A DNA stretch of 53,141 nucleotides from Spirochaetales bacterium. GTDB lineage: Bacteria > Spirochaetota > Spirochaetia > Sphaerochaetales > Sphaerochaetaceae. Positions 4,687 to 11,189 of this stretch are shown here, one piece after another. Numbering within the stretch: the first letter of the stretch is position 1; each line of letters starts with the position of its first letter. A program made the position numbers and the translations under genes. Location: positions 1 through 53,141 of the forward strand of contig JALEVV010000025.1 of assembly GCA_022788185.1 (NCBI GenBank), in the 5' to 3' direction. The notes beneath the pieces are model-generated. The model was not told where the DNA came from, made no database searches, and was given only the letters and a program-made list of their open reading frames with translations.

Positions 4687-4767
4687 AATTCCTCTATAGG
4701 GGATTGTGGTGTGAGATTGGATTATTATGCATGTTTGATGCTTTATTTAGGTCAGGAGGTTATTGTT

Positions 4768-5955
4768 ATGGCAAAGAGAAGAAAGTTTTATCTCTATCAG
4801 AGGCAGAAGAGGAGAGGAAAATACTGGTATGTCTGCTTTCTTGATCCGCAGACTGGGAGACAGGGAACGGCAAAGAGTATAGATGTCCTGAAGGAGCGGC
4901 TCGGACTCGGTGATAATGAAGCAACCACCAATCGGGATGATGCGGCGATTATAGCGAATAAGGCGCTGGAAGCAGGCATCGTGTTTTCAGGAGGGGCGGA
5001 AGAACTCTTCAGTTCATACTGTCTCAGGTTCTAAGATTTTGACAACAGTGAGTATATCCGGCTTCGTAATCAGGTGTCACCCAATTCAATAGGTCGGGAG
5101 TATTCGATGAACATGCTATGCAATCTGAAAAAGCATGTACTGCCGGAAATGCCTTCCTCATTAAAGCTTTCAGCCGTGTCAACAAGGCACCTGGATAAGG
5201 TTGTCTCAAGTGCCTTTTCCAAGGGACTTGCAAACGGAACGATTCAGATGATAGTACTGTCATTTCAGATTCCTTTGAAGGAAGCATTTCGTCAACGGTC
5301 CATCGTGGTGAATCCCTGTGACAGCCTCATGAAGATACCCCGGAATGAGAAGCTCAGGGGAGTGTTCACGGATGAGGAGATCGTGAAGATTCTTGATTAT
5401 GTTTCCTCCGGTGGCATTGCCGCACCGATTGCAAATGCGATCACGCTGGCAGTGCTTACCGGGATGAGGAACGGGGAAATACGGGCACTGAGATGTGATG
5501 ACATAGAGCAGGGGTATCGGTCAGGATATGACAGGATAACGATCTCCCGATCGCTTGCTCCCTACACGGGTGTTAAATCAACTAAGGGAAAGTACGACAG
5601 GACCGTTCTTATCCCCCACGACTTCGGTGACAGGCTCATCAGGGACAGCAGGAACGGGATCGTGATCTCACAGGACGGAGAGTATATGTCGTCGCTTACT
5701 CTCCGCCTTTCATTTTACAACGTGCTTTTTGCACTTGGGATAAGTGAGGAGTTAAGGTGTGAGAGAAGACTGACGTTTCACTCCCTGAGACATTACTTCT
5801 CGACTTACACCTGCCAGGAGAATATCAGTCAGGAGGACAGGATGGTCGTACTGGGACACAGAAGTGAAAAGGTTAATGACCGGTATACTCACATAAGTGA
5901 TGCAAGGCTTGAGAAAGTGGCCGAAGTGATGGGAAAACTCTATATGGCAAAATGA
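4768..5955 (+). pseudogene. Tyrosine recombinase (phage integrase) interrupted by an in-frame TAA
   Basis: The start at 4768 is supported by CAGGAGGT at 4753-4760. The N-terminal part (MAKRRKFYLYQRQKRRGKYW) is a typical integrase beta-hairpin. The reading frame meets TAA at 5032-5034 and then continues unshifted as a core-binding domain and a catalytic domain. Catalytic residues are all visible: R in LTGMRNGEIRAL, K in VKSTKGKYDR, HxxR in HSLRHYF, H in LGHRSEK, and the Tyr nucleophile in NDRYTHI. A downstream GTG at 5074 could restart translation of the 293-residue C-terminal part without the arm domain. An intact version would be about 395 residues. tRNA-Arg lies 0.9 kb away. Confidence 0.8.
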
Positions 5956-6778: not shown

Positions 6779-6834
6779 GGGCATATCCTCACTTTGTGAT
6801 ATTGTGCCTTCATAAGATAATTTTTTCAATTCAA

Positions 6835-6863
6835 TTGAACAATGTTTTTGTTTGTGATAGTAT
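6835..6863 (+). promoter_or_regulatory. Promoter of tRNA-Arg and probably of the NusG paralogue
   Basis: TTGAAC (6835-6840), a 17-base spacer and TAGTAT (6858-6863) place the transcription start around 6870, about 5 bases before the mature tRNA. No separate promoter can fit between the tRNA and the following gene, so this promoter should serve both. Confidence 0.7.
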
Positions 6864-6874
6864 TTTAATCCAGC

Positions 6875-6948
6875 GGTCCCGTAGCTCAGCTGGATAGAGC
6901 ACTTCCCTCCTAAGGAAGGGGTCATGAGTTCGAATCTCGTCGGGGCCA
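6875..6948 (+). tRNA. tRNA-Arg, anticodon CCT
   Basis: Seventy-four bases fold as a cloverleaf. The acceptor is GGTCCCG/CGGGGCC with discriminator A. The D arm is GCTC/GAGC. The anticodon stem is CTTCC/GGAAG with loop CTCCTAA, giving anticodon CCT. The T arm is ATGAG/CTCGT around TTCGAAT, and the variable loop has five bases. CCA is not encoded. It reads AGG codons. The next gene starts one base after the discriminator base. Confidence 0.95.
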
Positions 6949-6949
6949 T

Positions 6950-7513
6950 ATGTACTACTACTTCCTTGGATGCATGGTAGGAACAGAAAACCGAAACATG
7001 AGAATGGCACGGGTTACCGTGTTCAACAATATCTCCAGGGATGTGCATGTAAGGGTTTTTTCTCCGGACAGGGCTGTAATTGAATACTGTAAGAAACAGA
7101 GACGACTGGTCAATCAGCCCCTTATACCGGGCTATCTTCTCATTGAAACCGAAGCCGACCTTTTACCTATAAAACACCTGTTTGCGGGAATGACACCGTC
7201 AAGCTATGGTCTTGTCCACTATGCGGACAGGTCAATTTACCTTCGCGGGAGTGACAGGGCCTTTGCCGAGTGGATCGCAGAGAACAAGGGCCACATCACA
7301 TCATCCAAGATAAAGGTCAAAAAGACTCTCAATGAAGGCATGCAGATAACCGTACTCTCTGGTCCGCTCCGTGATCTTAAGGGTAAAATCATAAGAATTT
7401 ACAAGGACACAAAGGTCGTTGTGGAGATCCCGTTCCTCGACCAGGTGAAGAGGGTTAATCTTCCCGTTGAGATAGTAAAGGAAGATACTGACTCTTCACA
7501 GGAAAAACACTGA
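6950..7513 (+). CDS. NusG-family transcription elongation factor paralogue (LoaP/RfaH-like)
   Basis: A 187-residue protein with a NusG N-terminal (NGN) domain (YYFLGCMVGTENRN, IPGYLLIET) and a C-terminal KOW domain (GMQITVLSGPLRDLKGKII). NusG paralogues bind RNA polymerase and suppress pausing or termination, often over one operon. It lies away from the usual secE-rplK context, which favours a specialised paralogue. The start at 6950 is needed to keep the first beta strand of the NGN domain; it is one base after the tRNA and lacks a Shine-Dalgarno. Processing of the tRNA 3' end would leave a nearly leaderless message. The ABC exporter genes 75 bases downstream are candidate targets. Confidence 0.82.
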   Translation: MYYYFLGCMVGTENRNMRMARVTVFNNISRDVHVRVFSPDRAVIEYCKKQRRLVNQPLIPGYLLIETEADLLPIKHLFAGMTPSSYGLVHYADRSIYLRGSDRAFAEWIAENKGHITSSKIKVKKTLNEGMQITVLSGPLRDLKGKIIRIYKDTKVVVEIPFLDQVKRVNLPVEIVKEDTDSSQEKH

Positions 7514-7588
7514 GATTTTGTTGACTTATATCATGTGGGTCTGTATTTTTGTTAGGTAAATTTTCAGTATGAAACAGGGGGTTCTTTC

Positions 7589-9304
7589 TTGTTCAGACGA
7601 CTTGCCAGGAGCATCCGGGAATACCGGACCAGCGCCCTCCTTACTCCTCTTTACATGATAGGTGAAGTTGCCATGGAAGTGCTTATTCCCACTCTCATGG
7701 CACTTATCATTGACAGAGGCGTATACATGAATGATACCGCATACATCGTTAAAATGTCGGTGCTCATCGTATTGGCAGCGATGCTGTCAATGATGTTCGG
7801 CATTTTGGGAGCTTCGAGCGGATCAAAGGCATCATGCGGGTTTGCCAAAAACCTCAGACATGATCTGTTTCACCACATCCAGGATTTTTCTTTTTCCAAC
7901 ATCGATTCCTTTTCAACATCATCGCTCATCACAAGGCTGACAACAGATGTTCAGAATGTCCAGCAGGCATTCCAGATGATAATCAGGATATGCTTCCGCG
8001 CACCAATCATGTTCATCTTCGCGATCATCATGGTAATCCGCAACGGCGGAACACTGGTTGCCATCTTTGCAGTGGCAATTCCGGTGCTCGCAATTGCCTG
8101 TGTCTGGTTCATTAAGAGGGTGTTCCCCATCTTCAACAGGATCTTCCGTCACTACGATAAGCTTAACAGGGTAGTCAATGAGAACCTGACCGGCATAAGG
8201 ACCGTCAAGGCATATGTCAGGGAGGAGCAGGAGGAGGAAAAGTTCTTCGAGGCCTCCGGGAATATCAGGAATGACTTTGTGCTTGCCCAGAAGATGATGG
8301 TCATGATCAACCCGCTGGTGCAGGCAGTGGCATACGCCTGTCTTCTGGCAATCTGTTACTTCGGTGCCCGCCTCATCTCCGGCGGTGCGATGGGAACAGG
8401 TGAGCTGATGAGTGTATTCACATACACGATGCAGATTCTTATGTCCCTCATCATGATCGCAATGATAGTGGTACAGCTCTCGATGTCCAGGGCAGCAGCC
8501 CAGAGAATCATCGAGGTTCTCGATACGAAGCCTGAGATGGATCTTAATGAAAACGGAAAGAAAGACGTCCAGGATGGAAGTGTATCCTTTTCACATGTTG
8601 ACTTCTCCTACTCCCCATCGGGAAATCCACTGGTACTGCATGACATTAACCTGGAGATAAAGTCAGGTGAGACCGTCGGCATTCTTGGTTCAACGGGTTC
8701 AGGAAAGTCATCCCTCATCTCCCTGATTGCAAGGCTTTATGATGTTACCTCAGGAGCTGTTGCTGTAGGTGGACGCAATGTCAGGGACTACGATATAGTC
8801 AGTCTCCGAGACGCGGTCTCGGTGGTTCTTCAGAAGAACACGCTCTTTTCCGGAACGGTCAGAAGCAACCTGCTCTGGGGTAATGAGAATGCCACGGACG
8901 ATGAGCTCTGGTGGGCGCTTAATAGCGCCAATGCTGATTTCATCAAGGATCTTGATGCCCATGTGGAGCAGGGCGGAAACAACTTCTCAGGCGGACAGAA
9001 GCAGAGGCTCTGCATCGCCCGTGCCCTGGTCAAGAAGCCTAAGGTACTTATCTTCGATGACTCCACGAGCGCCGTCGATACCAGGACCGATCATGAGATA
9101 AGGACAGCCCTCAGGAATGATGTGAAGGACTGCACGAAGATCATCATCGCACAGAGAGTAAACTCTGTCATGGATGCCGACAAGATAGTCATCATGAAGA
9201 ACGGGCGCATTGAGGATGTGGGACGTCATGAGGAGCTTCTTGAACGGAACACGATTTACCAGGATCTTGTGCGCGTACAGCTGGGAGGTAAGGAAAATGG
9301 CTAA
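7589..9304 (+). CDS. ABC exporter subunit A (half transporter, degenerate ATP site)
   Basis: A 571-residue half transporter: six-helix type-IV exporter membrane domain (residues 1-310), then an ATPase domain. Walker A is GSTGSGKSS, the signature NFSGGQ, and Walker B VLIFDDSTSAVD. The catalytic Glu after Walker B is Asp and the switch His is Gln (IIIAQRV). This is the pattern of the non-hydrolysing site in heterodimeric exporters such as TM287/288. The start is TTG with GGGGG 5-9 bases ahead. The partner gene overlaps it by 8 bases. The substrate (drug, lipid or peptide) cannot be told from sequence. Confidence 0.88.
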   Translation: MFRRLARSIREYRTSALLTPLYMIGEVAMEVLIPTLMALIIDRGVYMNDTAYIVKMSVLIVLAAMLSMMFGILGASSGSKASCGFAKNLRHDLFHHIQDFSFSNIDSFSTSSLITRLTTDVQNVQQAFQMIIRICFRAPIMFIFAIIMVIRNGGTLVAIFAVAIPVLAIACVWFIKRVFPIFNRIFRHYDKLNRVVNENLTGIRTVKAYVREEQEEEKFFEASGNIRNDFVLAQKMMVMINPLVQAVAYACLLAICYFGARLISGGAMGTGELMSVFTYTMQILMSLIMIAMIVVQLSMSRAAAQRIIEVLDTKPEMDLNENGKKDVQDGSVSFSHVDFSYSPSGNPLVLHDINLEIKSGETVGILGSTGSGKSSLISLIARLYDVTSGAVAVGGRNVRDYDIVSLRDAVSVVLQKNTLFSGTVRSNLLWGNENATDDELWWALNSANADFIKDLDAHVEQGGNNFSGGQKQRLCIARALVKKPKVLIFDDSTSAVDTRTDHEIRTALRNDVKDCTKIIIAQRVNSVMDADKIVIMKNGRIEDVGRHEELLERNTIYQDLVRVQLGGKENG

Positions 9305-11189
9305 GATGAAGAGACTTCCGCCTCAGAAGGCAAAGGATCCCAAAAAGACATTCCGCCGCCTCTTCAAGGAGGTATTTGACGGAAAAAAGGCTCAGTTTGC
9401 GCTCGTGTTGTTCTGTATCGTGGTCTCTGCAGTCTGTACCGTCTATGTTTCCACACTCCTTCAGAGCCTCATCGATGACTTCCTCACCCCGATGCTGGCA
9501 TCAGGACACTTCGATTCTGCAGTGCTCCTCAGGACAATGGCAGGATGGGCAGTCGTAATGGCAGCTGGTGTGGCAGCTAGCTATGTGCAGGCCCGCATCA
9601 TGGTGACAATCGCACAGGATGCGTTGCTCTCGATCAGAAACAAGATGTTCACGAAGCTTGAGAAGCTTCCGATTTCCTACTTTGACCGTAACCAGCATGG
9701 CCAGATCATGTCGCGCTTCACGAACGATGCGGACACACTCCAGCAGATGATCTCCCAGTCACTTGTCAGTGTTATTTCCTCAGGCCTTACGCTCATCTTC
9801 GTCTTTGCCGCGATGCTGATGAACAACTGGATCATGACCGTGATCATAGTCCTCACGATGTTTGTGCTTCTGCAGGTCACGAAGATAATCGGATCAAAGA
9901 GCAGTAAGAACTTTGAAGCCCAGCAGAAGAACCTTGCGAAGGTAAACGGCTACATCGAGGAGATGATGACCGGAAGCAAGGTCGTCAAGGTCTTCAACCA
10001 TGAAGGAAAGAGCAAGGCCGAGTTTGATGCCCTCAACGGAGAGCTGTGTCAGACAATGACCAGGGCAAACACCTATTCCAACGTAATGGGACCCATAGTC
10101 AACAACATCGGAAACCTTCAGTACGTCATCCTGGTCTTCTGCGGCTCTCTGCTTTCTATCATGACAGGAGGTGCCTATTCAGTAGGACAGCTGGCTGCAT
10201 TCCTCCAGTTATCCAAGTCTTTTTCCAACCCGATGGGCCAGATCGCCCAGCAGGTGAACTTCTTCCTCATGGCCCTCGCCGGTGCGGAGCGTATCTTCGA
10301 GCTTCTCGATGAGAGCGAGGAGGTGGATAACGGCTATGTAACGCTTGTCAATGCAAAGGAAGTGGACGGTGTTCTTACCGAGTGCAGTGAGCGCACGGGA
10401 CTCTGGGCCTGGAAGCATCCCCATACCGATGGATCAGGCATCACGTACACACCCCTTAAGGGTGATATCGTGATGGACAGCGTGGACTTCTCATATGTGG
10501 AAGGAAAGCAGGTGCTTACCGACGTGTCGCTCTATGCCCACCCTGGTGAGAAGATTGCCTTTGTCGGTGCAACGGGTGCCGGAAAGACCACGATCACGAA
10601 CCTTCTCAACCGCTTTTATGACATACAGGATGGTAAGATCAGGTTTGACGGAATCAATATCAATAAGATCAAGAAGAGTGATTTGAGACACTCCCTTGGT
10701 ATTATTCTTCAGGATACCCATCTCTTCACCGGAACGATCAGGGATAATATCAGGTTCGGTAAGCTTGATGCCAGTGAGGATGAGATCATAAAGGCTGCAA
10801 AGCTTGCAGGTGCCCACGACTTCATCATGATGATGAAGGATGGTTATGACACGATGGTGGAGAATGATGGTGAAGGGCTTTCCCAGGGACAGAGACAGCT
10901 TCTTGCCATCGCCAGGGCCGCAGTTGCCGATCCTCCGGTGCTTGTCATGGATGAGGCAACCAGCTCGATCGATACCCATACGGAAAGCCTGGTTCAGGCA
11001 GGTATGGACCGCCTGATGGAAGGCAGGACGGTATTCGTCATCGCCCACCGTCTCTCCACGGTACGCAACAGCAATGCGATCATGGTACTTGACCACGGAA
11101 AGATTATTGAACGCGGTACCCATGAACAGCTCCTGGAGCAGAAGGGTGTTTACTACCGTCTCTACACCGGAGCATTTGAGCTCAGCTGA
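9297..11189 (+). CDS. ABC exporter subunit B (half transporter, active ATP site)
   Basis: A 630-residue partner of the preceding subunit. It has a basic N-terminus, a six-helix membrane domain, then Walker A GATGAGKTT, signature LSQGQ, Walker B VLVMDEATSSID with the catalytic Glu, and switch His in IAHRLST. The non-canonical LSQGQ faces the degenerate Walker site of subunit A, and FSGGQ of subunit A completes the active site here. This is exactly the division seen in TM287/288. The start at 9297 is preceded by GGGAGG; an upstream extension to 9210 lies inside subunit A. An insertion of about 40 residues between the membrane and ATPase domains (around residue 360) is longer than usual. Confidence 0.9.
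   Translation: MAKMKRLPPQKAKDPKKTFRRLFKEVFDGKKAQFALVLFCIVVSAVCTVYVSTLLQSLIDDFLTPMLASGHFDSAVLLRTMAGWAVVMAAGVAASYVQARIMVTIAQDALLSIRNKMFTKLEKLPISYFDRNQHGQIMSRFTNDADTLQQMISQSLVSVISSGLTLIFVFAAMLMNNWIMTVIIVLTMFVLLQVTKIIGSKSSKNFEAQQKNLAKVNGYIEEMMTGSKVVKVFNHEGKSKAEFDALNGELCQTMTRANTYSNVMGPIVNNIGNLQYVILVFCGSLLSIMTGGAYSVGQLAAFLQLSKSFSNPMGQIAQQVNFFLMALAGAERIFELLDESEEVDNGYVTLVNAKEVDGVLTECSERTGLWAWKHPHTDGSGITYTPLKGDIVMDSVDFSYVEGKQVLTDVSLYAHPGEKIAFVGATGAGKTTITNLLNRFYDIQDGKIRFDGININKIKKSDLRHSLGIILQDTHLFTGTIRDNIRFGKLDASEDEIIKAAKLAGAHDFIMMMKDGYDTMVENDGEGLSQGQRQLLAIARAAVADPPVLVMDEATSSIDTHTESLVQAGMDRLMEGRTVFVIAHRLSTVRNSNAIMVLDHGKIIERGTHEQLLEQKGVYYRLYTGAFELS

Follow-up and report, generated by a model that had tools for sequence, protein, structure and literature searches.

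We analysed a window of 53,141 nucleotides from a bacterium of the Spirochaetales, which is contig 45 of 90 in a 2.27-Mb draft genome (G000). The results showed a tRNA-Arg gene with anticodon CCT at positions 6875-6948 of the forward strand, identified by ARAGORN and covered over an identical span by Rfam RF00005 (64.3 bits); its 3' CCA is not encoded. An open reading frame (ORF) for a 187-aa NusG paralogue follows on the same strand at 6950-7513, and the single base T6949 separates its ATG from the discriminator base A6948 of the tRNA, so that ARAGORN, RF00005 and the ORF list agree with the coordinates given in a preliminary description of this DNA. A sigma70-like promoter, TTGAAC-17-TAGTAT (6835-6863, forward strand, 8 of 12 consensus bases), lies 11 nt ahead of the tRNA. 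Behind the NusG-like gene, the promoter-like sequence TTGACT-17-TATTTT (7521-7549, forward strand, 9 of 12 consensus bases; the kilobase holds 4 sites of this kind against 1.5 expected) possibly serves two ABC exporter genes at 7589-11189 on the same strand. Further upstream, a tyrosine recombinase gene at 4711-5955 is split into two ORFs (107 and 293 aa), with counterparts of one ORF (398-434 aa) near the tRNA in the genus relatives G005, G004 and G015, and ORFs that resemble a transposase (of IS110 type by eye) occupy two frames at 247-925 and have probably decayed. Among the 42 tRNA genes of the G000 draft, tRNA-Arg(CCU) was the only one with a same-strand ORF of at least 90 codons beginning within 19 nt of its end; by eye, a hairpin with a T run came next after 26 of the 42 and another tRNA after 7, together 33.

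The protein encoded at 6950-7513 was compared with family models and structures. Its best NCBIfam model was LoaP (NF033641, E 3.2e-16), at 59.9 bits against a curated cut-off of 125, and we therefore call it LoaP-like. The LoaP model matched all 12 aligned proteins, with a best E value of 2.9e-28 versus 2.2e-18 for the NusG model, both being the best values over the alignment rather than a ranking of models for each member. The Pfam KOW and NusG matches to the window protein fell slightly under their cut-offs. An AlphaFold model (mean pLDDT 82) predicted the NGN plus KOW fold of a NusG paralogue, and its nearest structure was 8f5g, a NusG-RNA complex that we take to be LoaP (Z 13.5, rmsd 3.9 over 167 residues). 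LoaP binds UNCG hairpins and promotes read-through. The window protein resembles LoaP in its best NCBIfam model and in having the fold closest to 8f5g, but it differs in scoring below the curated cut-off and in having a tRNA, rather than a target operon, as its constant neighbour. LoaP has been recorded in Spirochaetota (PMC12691694).

The start codon at 6950 was supported by the same alignment and model. All 12 sequences shared M1, Y3, Y4 and C8, and in the AlphaFold model the NGN fold opened with a strand made of residues 2-8. Since the conserved N-terminal residues make up strand 1, 6950 is the start, and the alternative ATG at 6974 was ruled out by the conserved strand-1 residues ahead of it. 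The housekeeping nusG gene is separate, at G000:C17. It is likewise linked to tRNA genes, yet with SD-like sites: at G000:C17:11730-12681 (loci L085, L107 and L144) we observed, in order, tRNA-Thr, a short ORF whose product starts with MANA (rpmG-like by eye), tRNA-Trp, a secE-like start and nusG.

To determine whether the tRNA/NusG-like junction is kept in related genomes, a check that the preliminary description had proposed, we compared 16 genomes of the window's genus. In 11 of them tRNA-Arg(CCU) was followed on the same strand, 1-27 nt away, by the orthologous loaP-like gene, and the record of Bullifex porci, the named member that was found of this genus of gut spirochaetes, shows the junction too, with a 1-nt spacer. 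On this comparison, the junction is not a chance arrangement. The spacers to the conserved ATG measured 1, 1, 7, 10, 10, 10, 13, 24, 26, 26 and 27 nt, with a further in-frame ATG 6 nt upstream of the conserved one in G015. The gap of one base, exact in the window, was thus restricted to two of the 11 genomes (G000 and G005), and at the sequence level the conserved feature is a short spacer poor in Shine-Dalgarno (SD) motifs rather than the one-base gap itself.

A loaP-like match was present in 13 of the 16 genomes, with tRNA-Arg(CCU) directly upstream in the 11 named above. In G003 the contig starts inside the loaP-like gene, so the upstream region cannot be judged; in G006 no tRNA was detected in the 383 bases between the gene and the contig end. 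A pattern search for tRNA-Arg(CCU) gave no match in the five genus genomes lacking the junction, and four weaker matches from G003, G006 and G010 proved on inspection to be tRNA-Thr, tRNA-Val (two) and tRNA-Arg(UCU). These five genomes are 62-97% complete, so some of the absences may be gaps.

In the protein tree, the 11 junction proteins formed one group (support 100/95), with the G006 and G003 proteins adjacent (81/87). The tree program warned that long branches meet where G000 and G005 join the other nine, which makes a single origin of the junction likely but not secure. Identity to the window protein was 68% for G005 and 33-40% for nine of the ten others. The loaP-like gene is under purifying selection: dS could be computed for three of four pairs of relatives, and dN/dS in these was about 0.08, 0.14 and 0.20. 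A scan of genome contigs for close relatives added only Bullifex porci and two archaeal matches to residues 125-179. The genes flanking the junction varied among the 11 genomes, those outside the Pfam scans being named by eye. Upstream, a glucosamine-6-phosphate-isomerase-like gene was found in seven of 11 (Pfam being run on the window copy). Downstream, there were ABC exporters in two genomes (the window's and, alone among the others, G005), a DHH-like gene on the opposite strand in two, a histidine-phosphatase-like gene in three, polysaccharide export genes with Wzz in two (G001 by Pfam, G012 by similarity), an opposite-strand gene in G014 and the contig end in G009.

We next considered how the pair is transcribed. 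TTGAAC-17-TAGTAT was the top weight-matrix promoter in the 90 bases before the tRNA (score 7.8, with weights that are approximate E. coli values) and lay below the threshold of the built-in scan. On the same strand that scan listed TTGTGA-16-GATAAT (6794-6821) and the site after the gene. The proposal that TTGAAC-17-TAGTAT is the only promoter therefore did not stand as worded, since a second site is listed ahead of the tRNA, while its essential part did: neither the scan nor the weight matrix detected a promoter-like site within the 3' portion of the tRNA or in the gap before the gene. All 11 junction genomes carried a sigma70-like promoter within 90 bases upstream of the tRNA (scores 6.1-10.6, -10 box 10-44 nt away), and the best site in any of them with a -10 box 4-50 nt before the ATG scored 1.9. 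A promoter between tRNA and gene was accordingly dropped as a candidate.

Terminators were then compared. In five other genera, a terminator-like hairpin followed the same tRNA in 18 of 19 loci (one, L037, weak), these being the loci delivered by the family search, 15 of them from genus g3; in genus g16 such a hairpin followed tRNA-Arg(CCU) in 10 of 14 loci. The 11 junction loci yielded just two weak hairpin matches, both overlapping the spacer and the coding start, and no convincing terminator. Genus-wide linkage and the absent terminator support co-transcription, and it is well supported and very probable that tRNA-Arg(CCU) and the loaP-like gene form one transcript. Some spacers are T-rich directly after the tRNA (G009, TTTTTTT; G004, TTGCTTTTTT; G001, CTTTTTGTAT; G012, TTTCTTTTTGTCT), which may lower read-through. 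RNA folding of 6868-7010 gave no excess stability (z 1.2), and the minimum-energy fold was not a cloverleaf.

The tRNA 3' end offers a possible source of the 5' end of the message. CCA was encoded in none of the 42 tRNAs of G000, which has an RNase Z gene at G000:C46:6765-7661. According to PMC8549757, RNase Z cleaves CCA-less precursors right after the discriminator, and in Streptococcus the tRNA-Ala trailer released by RNase Z started with U. By this rule, the predicted cut in the window falls between A6948 and U6949 of the forward strand, and the base at 6949 would be the whole leader of the released mRNA. A U lay directly 3' of the discriminator in nine of 11 junctions versus 16 of the 42 G000 tRNAs, a figure based on automatic placement, which misses by one base in some tRNAs. 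RNase Z was above cut-off in 13 of the 16 genus genomes, the window's included, the exceptions being G003, G013 and G015; G015 has the junction, and its lack of an above-cut-off match counts against a role of RNase Z. We consider release of the loaP-like mRNA by RNase Z to be moderately supported.

We then assessed how such a message could be translated. The claim that no SD is present at 6950 was borne out: there is no room for one outside the tRNA, and the sole complementarity is the acceptor-stem GGGG (duplex -5.0 kcal/mol). G005 likewise has no room outside the tRNA, and the other nine spacers gave duplexes of -3.5 or weaker, except for a modest -5.6 in G015. In the control set of 42 window ORFs, 74% had a start with an SD duplex of -6 or better within the first 30 codons (first start, 48%; all ATGs, 27%), and about half of 146 genus ORFs had one at the first ATG. 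Assuming a cut after the discriminator, the leader would be at most 10 nt in six of the 11 genomes (1 nt in the window) and 13-27 nt in the other five; spacers of 13-27 nt are not leaderless and count against a near-leaderless message.

Leaderless genes appear to be common in the window's genus. A promoter score of at least 6 was obtained for 46 of the 146 genus ORFs, and a gap of 5-9 nt separated the -10 box from the first ATG downstream in 17 of the 46, a count that includes three orthologue pairs and takes first ATGs as unverified starts. Of 58 loaP-like homologues with no tRNA in front, 41 had their -10 box 5-10 nt upstream of the start, compared with 56 of 286 control ORFs and 141 of 1160 shuffles; with promoter scores of at least 6, the proportions were 36 of 46 homologues versus 35 of 111 controls. 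By genus, this leaderless-type promoter was found in 17 of 17 (g3), 8 of 9 (g16), 4 of 4 (g19) and 2 of 9 (g8) homologues, and it was absent from the five homologues of g17 (three), g15 (one) and g2 (one); the counts are not independent, since the 17 g3 sequences are close relatives. The position of the -10 box suggests that most homologues lacking the tRNA have leaderless messages. G006, a genus relative without the tRNA, has TATAAT 8 nt before its ATG. Together, these features make a leaderless 5' end the likely ancestral state of the loaP-like family, for which the tRNA end was probably substituted. Leptospira has many leaderless mRNAs (PMC5243855); the predicted loaP-like message resembles them in that it would begin at or close to the start codon and lack an SD, but in Leptospira that 5' end is a transcription start, whereas here it would come from RNA processing.

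These observations are best explained, with a probability of about 0.6 in our estimate, by release of a near-leaderless loaP-like mRNA by RNase Z in place of a promoter-made 5' end. In this model, the tRNA promoter would drive tRNA-Arg(CCU) and the loaP-like gene as one unit, and the terminator usual after this tRNA in sister genera is absent. RNase P would trim the 5' end of the tRNA, and a single RNase Z cut after the discriminator would give the tRNA its CCA-addition site and the loaP-like mRNA its 5' end. The released mRNA would have a leader of 1 nt (here U-AUG) to 27 nt, with hardly any SD signal or none, and would then be translated by leaderless-type initiation. Leaderless translation and a coupling of the LoaP-like protein to tRNA supply are more weakly supported than RNase Z release. 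The earlier suggestion that tRNA cleavage makes the NusG-like message and so sets its expression is compatible with this model, and we infer it from the arrangement of the sequence. Of the three outcomes named as speaking against that suggestion, two were checked and did not come about (a conserved start at 6974 and a junction that relatives do not share), and the promoter scans, an indirect check of the third, gave no sign of a start in the 3' portion of the tRNA or behind it.

Other explanations share part of this evidence. The loaP-like gene may simply have lost its own promoter and been kept behind the tRNA as a plain read-through operon, processing having no regulatory meaning; such a history is compatible with release by RNase Z except on the role of processing, and fits both the single tree group of the 11 junction proteins and the other tRNA-mRNA units that G000 seems to contain (tRNA-Thr and tRNA-Trp with the rpmG-like, secE-like and nusG genes, by eye). 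Those units, however, have SD-like sites by eye and starts 34 and 27 nt after the tRNA, whereas the junction spacers are mostly shorter and SD-poor, and we regard a mere operon as rather unlikely. It is unlikely, too, that the gene is translated from the uncleaved precursor, with the tRNA as a structured 5' leader and cleavage ending expression. The acceptor-stem GGGG ends 4 nt before the ATG at 6950, with weak anti-SD pairing (-6.2 in G005), and a free mRNA with a 5' monophosphate might be unstable and decay fast. The GGGG is nevertheless part of the acceptor stem, and it lies 10-30 nt from the ATG in the other nine junction genomes, so it cannot be a common SD.

Delivery of the gene by an integrative element, with the tRNA 3' end as attachment site, was also weighed, because of a tyrosine recombinase gene some 1 kb upstream, with homologues near the tRNA in four of the ten other junction genomes. 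The tRNA 3' end did not recur in the window, with up to 3 mismatches allowed, and no exact tRNA repeat of at least 14 bases was found in the other ten stretches of 10-19.5 kb; the recombinase lies on the 5' side of the tRNA, and the protein tree groups the 11. Integration is thus highly improbable, and it was dropped because the tRNA 3' end is not repeated.

Codon use was examined as a reason for the pairing. tRNA-Arg(CCU) reads the commonest arginine codon of the window, AGG (43% of arginine codons), and the loaP-like gene showed no excess of it (6 of 14), so AGG enrichment was rejected as a reason. In stretches read from other genus genomes, which are small samples of 12-218 arginine codons, the AGG share was 12-23% (G003, G006, G007 and G010) and 40% (G013) where tRNA-Arg(CCU) was not found, and 18% in G005, which keeps it. 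In genus g16 the order is reversed: seven of 13 loaP-like loci (L154-L158, L161 and L162) have tRNA-Arg(CCU) behind the gene, either 35-66 nt away or with an overlap of about 7 nt at the stop. This reversed pairing, weighed as a functional link, may be coincidence, since by eye a separate promoter seems to serve the tRNA there, and since G030 and G108 have the tRNA near the same CBS-like gene without loaP.

In mitochondrial tRNA punctuation, a gene follows directly after a tRNA with no promoter or terminator between them and with a short leader or none. The junction is alike in that the gene abuts the tRNA, neither a promoter nor a terminator was found between them, and the leader would be short; it differs in that just one bacterial tRNA-gene pair is concerned, served by a promoter of its own, and cleavage is predicted. 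Bacterial tRNA-mRNA operons, such as tRNA-tufB of E. coli and the G000 unit with tRNA-Trp before the secE-like gene and nusG, similarly place a tRNA and a protein gene in one unit, but the G000 units have SD-like sites, whereas here 1-27 nt separate the tRNA from the start codon and the SD signal is slight or absent. Four elements of this picture are already known separately: tRNA-mRNA operons, leaderless mRNAs, LoaP-type NusG paralogues and mitochondrial tRNA punctuation. Our literature search found neither their combination in one conserved bacterial unit nor a bacterial leaderless mRNA arising from tRNA 3' processing; most subscription papers were outside its scope, and the absence is unproven.

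We tentatively propose, at somewhat less than even odds, a bacterial form of tRNA punctuation in which tRNA maturation by RNase Z would create the translatable end of an antiterminator mRNA, replace an ancestral leaderless end and tie LoaP-like output to tRNA-Arg(CCU). If true, the genus would offer a natural system, genus-wide and with a cultured member, in which a single cut yields both a tRNA and a near-leaderless mRNA, and this would allow a direct test of how tRNA maturation, leaderless translation and antitermination are linked. It would also suggest a path by which a leaderless gene moves from its own promoter to a 5' end made by a tRNA.
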